Origin: Paramylibacter ulvae | GTDB taxonomy: Bacteria; Pseudomonadota; Alphaproteobacteria; Rhodobacterales; Rhodobacteraceae | DNA: 64,000 nt | NCBI RefSeq assembly: GCF_014652655.1 | Contig: NZ_BMZF01000003.1 | Coordinates: forward strand, 124,001 to 188,000 | Reading direction: 5' to 3' | Shown here: positions 6,154-25,595 of the stretch, piece by piece | Position numbering within the stretch: position 1 is the first letter of the stretch | Layout: every line of letters starts with the position of its first letter | Program-made: the position numbers and the translations under genes | The notes under the pieces: generated by a model | What the model was told of the DNA's origin: nothing | What the model saw: the letters and a program-made list of their open reading frames with translations, nothing else | Databases searched by the model: none

Positions 6154-7299
6154 ATGGATACCGGGATTAAAATATCAGCATCGGCGCATGTGGCATTAAT
6201 TGCCGCCGCGATTTTTTCAGGTCAGTTGTTTAGCGCTGCGCCTGACGAAGCGGTGTCGGTTGCGCAAGTGTCATTGATTTCGGGCGATGAATTGGACGCG
6301 ATGACAATCCAATCTGTGGATGAAACAAATGTCGACGAACCCGCGCCAAACGTAGCCGAACCCGTCGTCGTCGAGCCAGAAGTTCAAGAACCCGATGTGG
6401 CAGAGCCGGAACCAACATCACCAGAAGTGACGGAACCTGAACCCGTTGGCGAAGTTGAAACAGCAGATGTCGGAACAGAAGCAATCGTTGAACAAGCCGG
6501 CGAAGTTAAGGACGAAGAATTTGCAATGGCGGCGCCCAAACAGGCCGACATTGTTGCAGATCAAGTCACAGAAAAACCCGAAGATATCGCGCAACCCGTA
6601 GAAGAGACTGTGCCGTCAGTAACACCAAAAGAAAAGCCCAAGGATTTGGTTGAACCGGTAGAGCCCAAAGAAGAGGCAACACCAAAAGAGACAACAACCA
6701 AAGTTGTGACAGAGGCGGACGAGCCAGATCAAAATGATCCTATGAAAACGGTGCGTCCAAAGGGACGCCCACAGCAATTGGCGAAACTGGAAGAACCGGC
6801 AGAGGAAAAGCCAGAACCCAAACCCGCCCCAGAGCCAGAACCCAAACCCGATCCAGAATCCGCGGTTGATCCGTTGGAACAAGCGATTCTGGATGATCTG
6901 AAAGCAGAAGAAGCAAAGCGTACAGCAGCCGAAACAGGTGTTGCAAACGCATCGGCGGGCGAATCCAACGCGCGCAAGGGTTCACCGTTGTCGCAATCCG
7001 AAAAGGATGGTTTGATTTTCGCAATCAAGGAATGCTGGAATGTTCCATTTGGTATTGAAAACGCCGATGAACTTGCAGTGACAGTTGGATTTGAGCTGCA
7101 TCCAGATGGACGCCTTAAGGGACAGATCAATTTTCTATCCGAAGGAGATGAAAATTCCGGTTTGACGGCGGTTGCATACCGCGCGGCGCGCTCTGCGATT
7201 GTACGCTGCCTTCCCTATGACAAACTGCCCCAAGACAAATACGATTCTTGGAAAAAGGTTGAGGTCACATTTGACCCCAAAAAAATGGTGCTGCGATGA
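6154..7299 (+). CDS. tolA: TolA-like energy transducer (first copy)
   Basis: 381-residue protein that should link the TolQR motor to TolB and Pal across the periplasm. I chose the ATG at 6154 (MDTGIKISASAHVALI), because Rhodobacterales TolA proteins begin in this way; ATG 6133 is also possible but lies inside tolR. One N-terminal membrane helix (about residues 6-24), a long Pro/Glu/Val/Lys-rich extended region (about 55-290), and a compact C-terminal domain (about 295-381) with two Cys, IKECWNV and AIVRCLPYDKLP, ending in WKKVEVTFDPKKM. The linker is Pro/Glu-rich instead of the Ala/Lys helix of E. coli TolA. Its stop overlaps the next gene (ATGA), which encodes a second TolA-like protein. Confidence 0.85.
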   Translation: MDTGIKISASAHVALIAAAIFSGQLFSAAPDEAVSVAQVSLISGDELDAMTIQSVDETNVDEPAPNVAEPVVVEPEVQEPDVAEPEPTSPEVTEPEPVGEVETADVGTEAIVEQAGEVKDEEFAMAAPKQADIVADQVTEKPEDIAQPVEETVPSVTPKEKPKDLVEPVEPKEEATPKETTTKVVTEADEPDQNDPMKTVRPKGRPQQLAKLEEPAEEKPEPKPAPEPEPKPDPESAVDPLEQAILDDLKAEEAKRTAAETGVANASAGESNARKGSPLSQSEKDGLIFAIKECWNVPFGIENADELAVTVGFELHPDGRLKGQINFLSEGDENSGLTAVAYRAARSAIVRCLPYDKLPQDKYDSWKKVEVTFDPKKMVLR

Positions 7300-8726
7300 G
7301 CTTTGATCGTGAAAAATGGACAATCATTGGCGGTATTTGCGCGATGGTGTTATCGGGGGGACTGGTTGCCGCAACATGGATTGGCGGCCCTGCTGATGTC
7401 GTGGCCACTGACGATCAAATCCCCGAAAGAACGCTAAATGCGCAAAAGGAAATTGAGGCCGTTATTGCCGCCGAAAAGGCAGCAATAGCTAAGGACACCG
7501 CAGATCAAGAAAAACGTGATCGTATTGCCGAAGACGAAAATAACAAAGCGGTCGCTGACCAAATAGAACGTGAGCGCTTGGTAAAACAAGCTGCTGAAGA
7601 ACACGAACAAGAAGTTGCAGCGCAATTCATCACCAGTAAAGTGAGCATTGCAGAAGCCGAAAAACAAAAAAACGAAGTTTCACAAGCAGAGCAACCATTG
7701 GAACAGGAAGAAATGGCGACAGAGGTTGCCAAAGAAACGGTTGTAGATATTGATAAAGAACCAAGCGCTATCAAAAAACTGGAAACCCAAGCAGAGCTGT
7801 TGAAACAAAATAAGTTGGCCGCGCAGAGGGAAGCCGAACTTGCCGCGCAAAAAGCACAACAAGAGTTGAATGCGCGAAAAAAAGTAGAAGAAGTGAAGCG
7901 AGCGGAATTGGCAGCGCTGCAAGAGCGTGCGCGTAAGTTAGCAGAACAACAAAAAGTTGAGGCACAAAAACGCGAGCAAGAATTATTAGCCGCGCAACAA
8001 CGTTTGCAAGAGTTTCAAGAAACACAAACATCCAAAGTTGTTAGTCCCGATGAGAGCGAAAAATCGGTTGGTGAGCAGGCGGAAACACAAGCAAAACCAG
8101 CACAAGAAAACGTGGTGAAAAGCGTGAAAACGATTACGGAAAAAGTTGAAACCGTTGTTGTCGCTCCCAAAACACAGGAATCGCCAATCGCGGTTACTAC
8201 ACCAACAATTACACCGCTCGATTCAGACGCAGATCAGACGACAGCGGCGTTCGACACTGCCACGATTGTTGAAATTGCGAAAGAGAAAGACGTTGCGCGG
8301 GCAAAATGGGATGCCAAAAAATCTGATAACGTTTTGTCCGCTGCGCCAAAGCAGGTGATTAAACAAGTGAAGCCACAAGCTAAAAAGAAGCAAGCGAATA
8401 CAACAAACAATGCAAACCTATTGCCGCGTGTTGCCAAAAATTCAATTGCTGCACAAATCGCTGGGTGTTGGAAATCGCCCCAATTATTCGCCGAGAACAA
8501 CGATAATCGCATCACGCTCCGTGTGGCGCTTAACAAGCAAGGGTTTTTATTAAGCAGCCCGAAAATGACAAACTGGACCGCAGATAATTTTGCCAGATCG
8601 GACGGTTTCAACATAGCGCGCCGTGCATTGACGCGCTGCCAACCATATCAACTGCCTGTTCAAAGTTACGCATCTTGGCGTAATCTTTCGATTGTGTTCG
8701 GGCCTCAATCAGTGAGTGTGAAATGA
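7296..8726 (+). CDS. Second TolA-like protein, tandem paralogue
   Basis: 476-residue protein with the TolA plan: one N-terminal membrane helix ([20 protein letters not shown], about residues 8-27), a very long Glu/Lys/Ala/Gln helical region (about 45-250) that looks like the E. coli TolA rod, a less regular segment, and a C-terminal domain (about 385-476). That domain parallels the one of the upstream gene: IAGCWKSP against [22 protein letters not shown] against [28 protein letters not shown] against YDSWKKVEVTFDP. Both Cys are kept. The start overlaps the stop of the first copy (ATGA at 7296-7299) and its stop overlaps tolB (ATGA at 8723-8726). It is intact and coupled, so likely functional. 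Whether it works beside or instead of the first copy is unknown. Confidence 0.82.
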
Positions 8727-21349: not shown

Positions 21350-22600
21350 TTAATGCAAGTTTGGTTGCGAACCTGCGCCTTTTTCATCGATCATCGCACC
21401 TTGTGCGAAACGATCCAGCCGATATTGTGTTGCGGTTTCGTGCGGGCGATCAGTGGCCAGTAAATGTGCATAGGCATCACCCGATGCTGGCGTTGCTTTG
21501 AACCCGCCGTAACACCAACCGCCGTTAAAATAGAGCCCGTCGATTGGCGTTTTATCAATGATGGGTGACCCATCCATCGACATATCCATAACGCCGCCCC
21601 ACATACGCAACAATCGCGCACGCCCCAAGAATGGCATCAAGGCCATCATATCTTCGGCTACATGTTCGATAACGGGCATATTTCCACGCTGTGCGTAACT
21701 GTTGTATCCATCGATATCACCGCCAAACACCAAGCCGCCTTTGTCTGATTGGCTGATATACAGATGCCCCGCGCCAAACGTGACAACGCCGGGTATGGTT
21801 GGTTTTAACCCCTCGGTTACAAAGGCTTGCAACACATGGCTTTCGATCGGGAGGCGCATGCCAGCCCGTGCCATCACCACGCTGGATGATCCTGCAACGC
21901 AAACGGCAACCTTGTTTGCGCTGATGGTGCCACGGCTGGTTTCGACACCGCTACATTTACCATCCTTGATGGTAAAACCAGTCACTTCGCAATTTTGGAT
22001 GATGTCCACACCATGGCTATCTGCGCTGCGGGCATATCCCCATGCCACCGCATCGTGGCGCGCGGTTCCAGCGCGGCGTTGTAATAATCCGCCTTGGATG
22101 GGGAAACGTGCATTATCAAAGTTCAAAAATGGCACCATGTTGCGCACGGCGTCCGCATCAAGCAATTCTGCATCCGCACCCGACATCAACATCGCATTGC
22201 CACGGCGTGCAAATGCATCACGCTGCGCATCCGAATGCGCAAGGTTCAAAATACCTCGCTGTGACATCATCACGTTATAGTTCAGATCGGTTTCCAACCC
22301 TTCCCATAATTTCATCGAATGTTCGTAAAACGGCTGATTTCCATCCAGCAAATAATTGGATCGCACAATTGTTGTGTTACGCCCAATGTTGCCGGAACCA
22401 AGCCACCCTTTTTCCAACACGGCCACATTGGTAACACCATATTTTTTCGCCAAATAATGCGCTGTTGCCAAACCATGCCCACCGCCGCCAACAATGACTA
22501 TATCGTATTTTGGTTTTGGATCAGGTTCACGCCAAACAGGTTTCCAGCCCTTGTTGCCGGTTAAACCGTTTTTGATAATACTCAGCGCCGAATATCGCAT
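21350..22600 (-). CDS. soxB: Sarcosine oxidase beta subunit SoxB
   Basis: 416-residue catalytic flavoprotein subunit (FAD plus covalent FMN) of sarcosine oxidase, first gene of soxBDAG. Start ATG at 22600 (MRYSALSIIKNGLTG), because GGGAGG lies seven bases upstream; a second ATG two codons earlier is too close to it. DAO-type FAD fold: IVIVGGGGHGLATAHYLAKK at about residues 33-52, followed by GWLGSGNIGRNTTIVRSNYL, and C-terminal YFNGGWCYGGFKATPASG near the substrate site. 12 bases separate it from soxD. The 239-base region upstream must carry the operon promoter; I could not pick one out. Confidence 0.95.
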   Translation of the reverse strand: MRYSALSIIKNGLTGNKGWKPVWREPDPKPKYDIVIVGGGGHGLATAHYLAKKYGVTNVAVLEKGWLGSGNIGRNTTIVRSNYLLDGNQPFYEHSMKLWEGLETDLNYNVMMSQRGILNLAHSDAQRDAFARRGNAMLMSGADAELLDADAVRNMVPFLNFDNARFPIQGGLLQRRAGTARHDAVAWGYARSADSHGVDIIQNCEVTGFTIKDGKCSGVETSRGTISANKVAVCVAGSSSVVMARAGMRLPIESHVLQAFVTEGLKPTIPGVVTFGAGHLYISQSDKGGLVFGGDIDGYNSYAQRGNMPVIEHVAEDMMALMPFLGRARLLRMWGGVMDMSMDGSPIIDKTPIDGLYFNGGWCYGGFKATPASGDAYAHLLATDRPHETATQYRLDRFAQGAMIDEKGAGSQPNLH

Positions 22601-22839
22601 TGGCATGCCTCCCGCGGACAGATTGGCACGATCGCGATAATTCACAAGCCTAAATAAGACATTTGAAGCGACAGAATGGACAGAAAAATGTTTATGAAAA
22701 TGATGGGCTGGCGCCAGAATTACCACTTGAACTGATACTCATTAAACTACTCGCGACCAGCCCTAACGCAAGGTTCCACCCCCCGCGTTACCCAAGACAT
22801 AAGATTTTGTTACAAACTTACAAGGCGTCGGACGCCAGT

Positions 22840-23499
22840 TTATTTCATCAATACTGGTTTTATTTCGCGCCCTAACGTAATTGCGATAGCGTTGTCGCCC
22901 ATTAACATATCTAAGGTTGTGTTTTTGGTGCCGTCGCGTTCGTCACCCTGCGAAAACGCGGGTAAAATTATCCGGTTGTCATCAACTGCAAAACATCGAT
23001 GAATTGTTGAGATCCCATTTTCATTCAAAATTTTGGATGGATTGTGGTGCCCCGATATTTCACAAACGCCCGCATGTGTTGCTTGGTTGCGAAAAGATAG
23101 GTGTTTGTGGCGAAATTCATTGTGATGACTACCACCCAAATCCACAGGCCCTGCATTTGAATCGCCGTCTATCCAAACCCAACGCCGACCAGCGGTCAGC
23201 GCAGCCAAGCGTTTGTGATCAACACTGTGCAATGAATCGAGGGATTTTAATTCGTCAAAGCTATTTCCAAGGCAAATTACAATAACGGGGTTAATTTGTT
23301 TGATTTCGTCACCCAACCGAGCAAGGCTTTCTTGGGTATGAAAAGGGGGGAGCATGTTTTTATACGCTTTGTTCTGCGTATCGGATTTTGCCAAATGAAT
23401 GTTGGATACGCATAACAACTTCTCACTTGGCCACCACAACGAACCCGATTGGTTCGCGACCATTTGTTGTCCTGAAAAATTGAATTCATGCTGTTCCAT
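22840..23499 (-). CDS. Calcineurin-like phosphoesterase homologue lacking all metal ligands (probable pseudoenzyme)
   Basis: Intact 219-residue ORF, start ATG at 23499 with AGGGGA 12 bases upstream. It follows the fold of the DNA-ligase-associated metallophosphoesterase family: LWWPSEKLLCVSNIHLAKS, LPPFHTQESLARL, VIVICLGNSFDE, WVWIDGDSNAGP, ISGHHNPS, HRCFAVDDNRIILPAF. Compared with family motifs (D-L-H, G-D-S-F, G-N-H-D-P, F-R-H-E, G-H-L-H-P) the ligands are changed: Asn33 for Asp, Asn79 for Asp, Asp113-Ser114-Asn115 for Asn-His-Asp, Asn138 for His, and Asn153 for the second His of GHxH. Usual partners (ligase, Lhr-like helicase, exonuclease) are absent; instead it stands downstream of the tad-locus AAA+ ATPase, 68 bases away. 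Catalysis is very unlikely; a scaffold or binding role, or early decay, are the alternatives. Confidence 0.8.
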   Translation of the reverse strand: MEQHEFNFSGQQMVANQSGSLWWPSEKLLCVSNIHLAKSDTQNKAYKNMLPPFHTQESLARLGDEIKQINPVIVICLGNSFDELKSLDSLHSVDHKRLAALTAGRRWVWIDGDSNAGPVDLGGSHHNEFRHKHLSFRNQATHAGVCEISGHHNPSKILNENGISTIHRCFAVDDNRIILPAFSQGDERDGTKNTTLDMLMGDNAIAITLGREIKPVLMK

Positions 23500-23567
23500 A
23501 AATACAGAAAATCCCCTGCAACGTATTATTGCAAGGGATTTTAAAATTTTGGCAGTCATACAAAGTG

Positions 23568-24980
23568 TTATTTTTCGATAATCGAATCCGCCACAAACAA
23601 GTTTTCCCATGCGCGATCCAACAGTTCTGGTGTTAACTGTGGTTCGCGACCCTCATAGGCGCAAATGGTCAACATCTGTTCAATCAAGAACCCTGGCTGA
23701 TAGGCCGCGTATTTGTTATCCACTGATGGATATTTTTCAGTGAACAGATGAATGGCAACTTCTTCGGGCAATTTCACATTTTTGGCTTTGGCCACCAACA
23801 TCATGATTTGCAACAATTGTTCACGATTAGGCGCATCAATCAAAATTTTAGAATTAATCCGTCGCAACGCCGCACCGTCAAAGATTTCTTTGGGGTGAAA
23901 GTTGGTGGAAAAAATAACCAGCGTGTCAAACGGCACGAGGAATTTTTCACCAGAGTTAAGCGCCAAAATGTCTTCGCCTGCTTCCATTGGGGTAATCCAA
24001 CGGTTGATCATCGCCTGTGGTGGATCGACTTGTCGGCCAAGGTCATCCACGATGAACAGGCCACCTGTTGATTTCAACTGTAACGGCGCTTGGTACGTTT
24101 TGGAAATGGGGTTATAGATCAGATCCAGCATATCAAGGCGCAATTCACCACCTGTCAAAACCGCTGGGCGGCGGCACAATACATAACGTGCATCAAATCG
24201 ATCGGCGCGCACACGCAGCGCATGAACATCTTCGTGTTCTTCCACGGCCTGTTCATGCACGATCGGATCATAAAGAGAAATAACCTGTCCCTGATATTCC
24301 AATACGCGGGGAATATAGATTTTTTCACCAATCGCGTCACGAATACGCCCAGCGAGCGTTGATTTGCCGTTACCAGGAGGGCCGTAAAACAGCACGGATT
24401 TACCAGAATTCACCGCTGGTCCAATTTGATCCAACAATGATGCGCTAATCACAACGCCTTTGAACTTATCGACCAATCGTTCTTTTTCGATGGTCAGGTG
24501 TGAAACCGATTGGCGTTCAACCTGTTCGGCAAACATTGCCATGGGTACGGGCAGCGCGCCAAAATATTCGGATTGCATGAATGCTTCGATAGCACGTGAT
24601 TTACCGTTTTCCGTTAACTGATAGCGAAGTTCAGAGTTTTCCGTTTCACCAGTTTTACCCAAGGTTTCTATCAATTTCTGATCGCGACAAATGGTAATCA
24701 ACTCGTTCAAGACTGATGCGCCAACACAGAGTGCCTTGGACATTTGAGAAACGGTTTCCAAATTGGTCCGAAAAATCGTTTTGATCAAAAGGTCGCGCAT
24801 AAATACAGTGCCCAAACCCGTTTCGGCGATGCTACGCGGCGCTTTGGGCGGGATGATTTTGCGCGCATCTTGCGGCACAGCTTTTGGTTTGTCTCGCTTT
24901 GTCAGCGTTGAAACAATCGATTTTTCTGGGGCGGGTTCTTTTGTGCGACCTTTGCCAAACTGTGTACTACGAAAATCCAT
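23568..24980 (-). CDS. AAA+ ATPase with helical/winged N-terminal region, downstream of tad locus
   Basis: 470-residue cytoplasmic ATPase; start ATG at 24980 with AAGGG eight bases upstream. A disordered basic, Pro/Lys-rich N-terminus (1-50) is followed by a winged-helix-like region (about 60-135: FMRDLLIKTIF ... LNELITICRDQKLIETLG ... LRYQLTENGKSRAIE), then an AAA+ core: Walker A GPPGNGKST at 200-208, Walker B GGLFIVDDLGRQ (about 295-306), sensor I-like VIFSTNFHP and the arginine-rich FDGAALRRINSK. I cannot give it a name. It lies behind the prepilin peptidase gene on the same strand (129-base gap), so a role in pilus assembly or its regulation is plausible but inferred from position only. 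Confidence 0.8.
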   Translation of the reverse strand: MDFRSTQFGKGRTKEPAPEKSIVSTLTKRDKPKAVPQDARKIIPPKAPRSIAETGLGTVFMRDLLIKTIFRTNLETVSQMSKALCVGASVLNELITICRDQKLIETLGKTGETENSELRYQLTENGKSRAIEAFMQSEYFGALPVPMAMFAEQVERQSVSHLTIEKERLVDKFKGVVISASLLDQIGPAVNSGKSVLFYGPPGNGKSTLAGRIRDAIGEKIYIPRVLEYQGQVISLYDPIVHEQAVEEHEDVHALRVRADRFDARYVLCRRPAVLTGGELRLDMLDLIYNPISKTYQAPLQLKSTGGLFIVDDLGRQVDPPQAMINRWITPMEAGEDILALNSGEKFLVPFDTLVIFSTNFHPKEIFDGAALRRINSKILIDAPNREQLLQIMMLVAKAKNVKLPEEVAIHLFTEKYPSVDNKYAAYQPGFLIEQMLTICAYEGREPQLTPELLDRAWENLFVADSIIEK

Positions 24981-25109
24981 ATTTAATACCCTTGGGAAAA
25001 TTCGGTTATATATCCATGCATCGCGTGCATTGTCGGCCAAGAATGCGCGTTTTTTGAGGCAAAATCAAATTCTTATCAATCGGGGTGTCCAATTAGATGC
25101 CCACTGTGC

Positions 25110-25595
25110 CTATTGCATTGCGCTATAGATTAGATATGCGGACAACGATCCCGCTAGTGGTAATCCAAAGGGAAATTTTATTTTCTCCGACCATGATTTC
25201 CAATTGCTAAACACCGTGTTTTTCAATGTTGTTCTATCGATAACGCGGTGTAAAACGACTGCGCTAATTGATAAAAAAGACAATAAAAACAGATATATGG
25301 TGACATCGCGATAGGCGACATAAGGTGCGATTGCCGCAAATAATTTTGCATCACCCCCGCCAATCAATCCCATAGAGTTCAGCACAAAAAACAACACCAA
25401 AACACCGATTGCTTGTAAAATTCGGATGCCAAATTCGGGAAGTGGCATGAAAAATGCACCGAAAATTACGAATATCGCAAATAATACGATATTCGCTTTG
25501 TTCGGAATAATCATGTTTTTCAGATCACTCCACGCGCACCAAATCACGATTGGAAAGGTGGAGCACAGAAAAAACCAAAGCCCAACTTCGCTCAT
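25110..25595 (-). CDS. cpaA: Prepilin peptidase CpaA/TadV
   Basis: 161-residue aspartic membrane peptidase (family A24) that cleaves the leader of Flp pilins. The two catalytic Asp are visible in WSDLKNMIIPN (about residue 23) and GLIGGGDAKLFAA (about residue 79). Four to five hydrophobic helices span the protein (for example FAIFVIFGAFFMP, IGVLVLFFVLNSMGL, TIYLFLLSFLSISAVVL). It lacks the methyltransferase domain of type IV prepilin peptidases, as usual for TadV. The start overlaps the stop of the upstream TPR gene (ATGA at 25592-25595). Confidence 0.93.
   Translation of the reverse strand: MSEVGLWFFLCSTFPIVIWCAWSDLKNMIIPNKANIVLFAIFVIFGAFFMPLPEFGIRILQAIGVLVLFFVLNSMGLIGGGDAKLFAAIAPYVAYRDVTIYLFLLSFLSISAVVLHRVIDRTTLKNTVFSNWKSWSEKIKFPFGLPLAGSLSAYLIYSAMQ

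Follow-up and report, generated by a model that had tools for sequence, protein, structure and literature searches.

The window analysed here, a stretch of 64,000 nucleotides from Paramylibacter ulvae, carries on its minus strand an uninterrupted ORF of 219 residues, here termed pseudo-PdeM, which follows a putative AAA-ATPase gene at the end of a pilus locus (Table 1). Matches to prepilin peptidase and T2SSF mark the pilus neighbours, and the pilus is putatively of the Tad type; Pfam assigned no family to the ATPase gene product. The start codon of the ATPase gene probably lies further in than the start of the listed ORF, and the P. kogurei match contains one in-frame TAG while most relatives match from about residue 50-65. 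The start codon of pseudo-PdeM stands 8 bases past a terminator-like hairpin, and no Rfam family matched positions 22000-25200 at the gathering score. The 3' arm of the hairpin reads AGGGGA (AAGGGA in P. kogurei) 12 bases before the ATG, and the ribosome site of the gene may be sequestered in it.

Table 1. Features at the pseudo-PdeM locus of P. ulvae (positions in the window).
Feature	Position	Strand	Remarks
Pseudo-PdeM CDS	22840..23499	-	219 aa + stop; predicted MPE fold, most metal ligands replaced
Putative ATPase gene, end of putative Tad-type pilus locus	23568..25040	-	Lhr2 then PdeM follow in nine genus members
ATPase-to-pseudo-PdeM interval, 68 bp	23500..23567	-	Site of the Lhr2 helicase gene in nine relatives
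15-bp hairpin, terminator-like	23508..23542	-	Separates ATPase gene from start codon of pseudo-PdeM; P. kogurei conserves the stem
Former D-x-H motif, now N33-I34-H35 (D33N; H35 kept)	23395..23403	-	Canonical alignment
Former GD-motif Asp, now N79	23263..23265	-	Canonical alignment
Former G-N-H-D motif, now D113-S114-N115, presumed catalytic His lost	23155..23163	-	Canonical alignment; block 106-120 identical to P. kogurei
Former FRH ligand His, now N138	23086..23088	-	Canonical alignment
Former G-H-x-H motif, with H151 retained (P. kogurei: Tyr) and H153 replaced by Asn	23041..23049	-	Canonical alignment
Former conserved GxYTGGL loop, now SQGDERD	22933..22953	-	Alignment; model confidence partly low

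PdeM is a Mn-dependent nuclease whose gene usually stands next to that of the Lhr2 (Lhr-Core) helicase. The ORF is real: the product matched the NCBIfam model TIGR04123 (PdeM) with an E value of 1.4e-36 and a score of 125.9 bits, below the curated cut-off of 150 bits, and in Pfam nothing but a sub-threshold DUF4072 match was obtained. The protein search found the homologue as a single copy in its own genome (G000). In a family set of 394 genomes (393 genera), the closest relative, aligning over the full length with 79% identity, is that of a member of the same genus, P. kogurei (G120; Amylibacter kogurei 4G11, assembly NZ_MDGM01000012.1), and the rest of the matches listed in the family-wide search had 34-46% identity to the window protein, that of G420 having 46%. 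A scan of genome contigs recovered P. kogurei alone, and a scan of viral contigs no relative.

According to a study of PdeM (PMC4320098), MPEs hold their metals with two Asp residues, an Asn and four His. By the order of the motifs, we assigned the seven ligands to D33, H35, D79, N113, H138, H151 and H153. Together with D115 and with H114, which we take to be the catalytic His of the superfamily, these make nine motif residues, each of them found in 52 of 52 canonical homologues and also in 114 of 114 proteins of a larger canonical set (counts that leave aside the fragments L082-L088 and L040, the PdeM of G397). The window protein carries N, H, N, D, N, H and N at the seven ligand positions and S at 114, and the PdeM signature D-x-H, GD, GNHD, H, GHxH reads here NIH, GN, GDSN, N and GHHN. 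The residues given in the preliminary description (N33-I-H35, G-N79-S-F, G-D113-S114-N115, F-R-N138 and G-H151-H-N153-P) were correct, and its statement that every metal ligand is replaced holds for five of the seven ligands and the catalytic His, H35 and H151 being retained. The motif residues of P. kogurei are identical except for Y151, so that six of its seven ligands are replaced (H151Y), and all seven motif positions replaced in the window protein are identical in both species. We infer that the window protein is unable to hold a two-metal centre or to cut DNA; the two surviving His ligands may allow residual metal binding.

It had also been claimed that the losses hit exactly the ligands while the framework residues stay. 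Of 36 columns conserved at 97% or more in 114 canonical sequences, 17 were changed in the window protein, comprising six of the eight ligand or catalytic columns and 11 of the 28 others (p = 0.11), and the corresponding figures for P. kogurei were seven of eight and 11 of 28 (p = 0.04). With the 52-sequence set, ligand selectivity over its 25 fully invariant columns gave p = 0.097; a value of p = 0.001 was obtained when the GxxTGG loop was counted into the site post hoc. A loss confined to the ligands was therefore rejected. The changed columns outside the ligands are R41, R44, T58, D83, D115, K155 and G183/T186/G187/G188/L189. Among all 36 columns, those that stay are H35, D82, R137 and H151 and, outside the GxYTGGL loop, the Gly, Pro and hydrophobic positions. 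The framework does stay in its Gly, Pro and hydrophobic positions but not in the GxYTGGL loop and in several polar residues, and what was lost is a functional surface, rather than the ligands alone, with the fold kept.

The AlphaFold (AF2) model of the window protein, built on 51 sequences, had a pLDDT of 85.7 and a pTM of 0.86, with segments below 50 at 42-52 and 189-191, one in the loop that follows D-x-H and the other in the loop that holds GxYTGGL, whereas the 205-residue matched part of the canonical G420 protein, modelled with the same 51 sequences, reached 91.6 and 0.90 with no segment below 50. The best Foldseek superpositions were with the P. putida MPE (6nvp, E 7.1e-12; 6nvo, 1.1e-11; target TM 0.80-0.81); the window protein is thus predicted to retain the fold of this nuclease. 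The third match was a complex of the human Pol delta regulatory subunit (E 5.4e-4) at the low TM of 0.36/0.22, and further ones were MPE-fold enzymes including LpxH and Mre11; these weak matches, the Pol delta subunits included, show a shared superfamily only. A sequence search of the PDB to E = 1 returned the two MPE entries alone.

The losses common to both Paramylibacter proteins (five of the seven ligands, the catalytic His, several polar residues and the GxYTGGL loop) most simply predate the split of the species, and we estimated selection since then with a branch codon model of the GY94 type (own code; eight genus sequences, 219 codons), in which dS was high or saturated on most branches. 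Omega was 0.094 on the two Paramylibacter tips, 0.079 in the canonical background and 0.246 on the stem; neither stem nor tips differed significantly from the background, the deep branches were saturated, and forcing omega = 1 on the tips was worse by 72.5 lnL units (2dlnL 145). Pairwise estimates over a longer ORF of 256 codons gave 0.098 (NG86) and 0.068 (YN00), values above those of many neighbouring genes. Over the 219 codons there were 81 synonymous and 46 nonsynonymous codon differences, the 79% identity being retained at dS > 1. Blocks 46-60, 76-90 and 106-120 are fully identical in the two species, block 106-120 being changed from the canonical sequence yet the same in both, and 44 of the 45 positions of residues 76-120, including the rebuilt GDSN loop, are identical. 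Net charge is near zero in both proteins (-3 in the window protein, +2 in P. kogurei). On the other hand, the amino-acid branch of the Paramylibacter stem measured 0.85 vs 0.22 for its sister G420, and in a tree of 119 proteins it was the second longest (1.11), so that much change preceded the present constraint. These results show that purifying selection since the split has been about as strong as in canonical PdeMs, on the evidence of one species pair, since only two genomes carry the variant. The protein is homologous to an active enzyme, lacks the conserved catalytic motifs and, by that same pair, is maintained by selection, which bears out the earlier proposal of a protein that is probably non-catalytic and is kept.

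The position of the gene at the end of the pilus locus was as first read. In nine members of the genus (G394, G396, G398, G405, G409, G411, G413, G420 and G421), the ATPase, Lhr2 and PdeM genes lie in this order on one strand, the ATPase gene directly adjoining Lhr2 in G409, G411 and G420 and standing roughly 0.9 kb from it in the other six. G420 has an ATPase with 87% identity across the portion present, carries Lhr2 and retains all nine residues in its PdeM. A functional tie to the pilus was rejected: the arrangement is inherited synteny, the pilus genes being neighbours of the helicase-nuclease pair. PdeM exceeds its cut-off in 11 of the 33 genomes of the genus, and Lhr2 does so in exactly these 11. 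The adjacent Lhr-Core helicase, usual for PdeM although not strictly defining, is missing in the window: neither P. ulvae nor P. kogurei has an Lhr2 over the cut-off or at E <= 1e-80, and no helicase remnant was found beside pseudo-PdeM in the 68-bp interval. The usual ligase and helicase partners are both absent, as noted before. However, none of the 33 genomes has a ligase over the cut-off (G397 alone gave strong split matches below it) and one, G397, has an exonuclease over it. The absence of ligase and exonuclease is therefore ordinary, and the missing ligase was rejected as a peculiarity; the missing helicase alone is informative. In G397, a single contig (C2) carries a helicase, an exonuclease, a ligase-like gene and a divergent PdeM (L040) that is 25% identical to the window protein, a cluster that may represent contamination or horizontal transfer.

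Across the family, the two genes nearly always occur together. PdeM was matched in 323 of the 394 genomes, 315 of them over the cut-off; Lhr2 was matched at E <= 1e-80 in 317, of which 304 exceeded the cut-off. Reading the two listings against each other gave 314 genomes with both, 68 with neither, three with Lhr2 only (G102, G264 and G359) and nine with PdeM only (G000, G120, G009, G100, G108, G147, G327, G329 and G354). One of the latter, G147, proved to carry part of an Lhr2 gene where a contig ends, its PdeM being intact, which means that the search at E <= 1e-80 can miss truncated copies; it was counted in neither of the groups compared below. Seven of the remaining eight are at least 91% complete. 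The nine motif residues were intact in all 112 Lhr2-bearing genomes checked, which were not a random draw but consisted of 10 of the 11 such genomes of the genus, together with 102 of the 314 that carry both genes in the family (28 plus 60 from the upper ranking of the protein search and 14 low-scoring). By contrast, at least one motif residue was lost in the PdeMs of all six genomes checked (G000, G120, G100, G354, G327 and G009) out of the seven near-complete ones lacking Lhr2, the seventh being G108 (91% complete, with no Lhr2 at E <= 1e-80). Apart from the two Paramylibacter species, the changes are H35L, N113V and H151C in G100 (L156/L161), where the protein is eroded but the frame open, D79V and H114N in G354 (L160), N113S in G327 (L159), and H35R and D79G plus a frameshift in G009 (L085/L162); no Lhr2 was found within 10-12 kb around PdeM in these four. 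The missing Lhr2 was the reason for examining G327 and G354, and G100 and G009 first drew attention by their low scores. The PdeM of G329 (76% complete) is intact, with no Lhr2 found, and that of G008 (L157) has an insertion with its motifs apparently intact when read by eye.

The association between the presence of Lhr2 and the integrity of PdeM gave a Fisher p of 3e-10 (112/112 vs 0/6, uncorrected for kinship) and of 7e-7 when kin were pooled into four lineages and G329 was taken as intact, neither being a phylogenetic test. In G327 and G354, whose PdeMs are the least altered of the group, three of the four changes in conserved columns fall on ligand or catalytic residues (one-sided p = 0.03), and these four changes are suggestive of disarming coming first. 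Branch omegas were 0.044 (G100), 0.074 (G327) and 0.119 (G354), on saturated branches that mix time before and after helicase loss, and in G327 omega = 1 costs 2.3 lnL units and is not firmly rejected; we do not count these values as proof. Loss of the helicase appears to release, or to select against, the nuclease. The Lhr2-lacking PdeMs with catalytic losses represent a natural genetic experiment, which suggests that the nuclease activity of PdeM depends on Lhr2.

The nearest known system is PdeM/MPE itself (TIGR04123; the P. putida MPE of PDB 6nvo/6nvp; the PdeM of PMC4320098), with which the window gene shares the fold, a similar length and the chromosomal neighbourhood seen in nine genus members, and from which it differs in lacking five of seven ligands, the catalytic His, the GxYTGGL loop and an Lhr2 neighbour, and in scoring below the cut-off. 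Lhr-Core and MPE genes are neighbours in many bacteria, MPE lying near blhr in 276 of 319 genomes (PMC8301817). According to another paper (PMC4996933), the MPE nuclease motifs of the B-subunits of eukaryotic DNA polymerases were inactivated and the domain converted to a scaffold; these too are inactive MPE folds, but they are ancient and have an OB domain, while the window protein is free-standing and bacterial, and Pol delta was matched only at low TM. Likewise, the PHP domain of E. coli Pol III alpha has lost its metal ligands and is kept for structure, the loss being linked to another protein (PMC3666897); there the family is a different one (PHP), and the loss goes with the presence of a separate exonuclease and not, as here, with the absence of a helicase. 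Among the matches listed for the open-access literature (titles and abstract openings, the main PpMPE papers lying outside), there was neither an inactivated PdeM nor a link between Lhr loss and the PdeM active site. Pseudoenzymes and inactive MPE folds are already known; what is new, as far as literature searches show, is a PdeM that is disarmed yet maintained, together with its association with the absence of Lhr2. We know of no established reason why the Lhr-Core and MPE genes need each other.

We believe that pseudo-PdeM is very probably a maintained, non-catalytic pseudoenzyme descended from PdeM, catalysis being judged from its residues only, and neither a decaying gene nor a sequencing error, because P. 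kogurei shares the replacements and because omega is 0.094. An error of sequencing or assembly has a negligible probability and was rejected, the separate P. kogurei assembly having the same residues. Simple decay, in which PdeM would be drifting towards a pseudogene after helicase loss with its frame open by luck, could draw on the long stem branch, the frameshifted homologue of G009, which is also without Lhr2, the hairpin that precedes the gene, and a pairwise omega exceeding that of many neighbours. A near relative with intact ligands, G420 (L039), does exist in the genus, but the earlier condition for decay also called for a neutral dN/dS, and neutrality since the split is rejected. Identity at this depth of synonymous divergence, with three blocks unchanged, leaves this explanation highly improbable; we rejected it on omega. 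The earlier argument that random decay would break the frame fits G009 and fails in G100, both without Lhr2.

Among readings in which the protein is kept, a rebuilt enzyme, whose pocket (N33, H35, N79, D113, S114, N115, N138, H151 and N153) would bind another metal or substrate for a different chemistry, is in our judgement just as improbable as decay. The replacements are polar and the seven positions identical in both species, and metal binding by H35 and D113 would still be possible. However, by our own arithmetic an overall identity of 79% would by itself leave all seven positions identical in about a fifth of cases, the fullest remaining site is not common to both species since P. kogurei has Tyr in place of H151, and the loops after D-x-H and around GxYTGGL lose predicted order in comparison with the G420 model. 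Somewhat less remote, although still unlikely, is the initial proposal that the protein only binds, with DNA or a nucleotide lying in the former cleft: the fold is that of a single-strand DNA nuclease and the cleft now has fewer acidic ligands, but the near-invariant R41 and K155 have been substituted, as has R44 (now Lys), and net charge is near zero. What stands of that proposal is a protein that is probably non-catalytic and kept. The changes in conserved basic residues and in the GxYTGGL loop, and the drop in predicted order of two loops, speak against DNA being bound in the former cleft.

For the origin of the pseudoenzyme, we tentatively propose that loss of the helicase made the nuclease dispensable or harmful and that the fold was kept as a scaffold or binding protein, a scenario to which we give somewhat less than an even chance. 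The Lhr2 gene would have been lost from between the ATPase and PdeM genes; without Lhr2, an unguided single-strand nuclease would no longer be needed or would be harmful; the metal centre and further conserved polar residues would then have been lost, and the remaining MPE fold kept for a scaffold or binding task, in which a protein partner would most likely dock on the block of about residues 76-120. The scaffold step is drawn from analogy with the polymerase B-subunits (PMC4996933) and the dead PHP domain (PMC3666897). More speculative still is a general rule under which a PdeM left without Lhr2 does harm and has its metal centre disarmed, with single changes at first (G327 and G354) and wider ones later (G100), and which in Paramylibacter would have ended with the protein taken over for a non-cutting task under renewed constraint. 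Paramylibacter itself offers a probable pseudonuclease at a stage after its conversion, with canonical sister proteins available in the same genus for comparison.

Two observations on divergence from P. kogurei concern other parts of the window. NG86 dS ranges from about 0.4 to 2.7 across positions 1-38824 and from about 0.05 to 0.8, mostly below 0.6, across 38829-59797, a drop to the right of 38.8 kb that could reflect recent recombination between the species or codon bias. In addition, the product of the gene at 7296-8726 (+) has 57% identity to its P. kogurei orthologue, the direct neighbours having 87% and 95%, and the gene is apparently fast-evolving.
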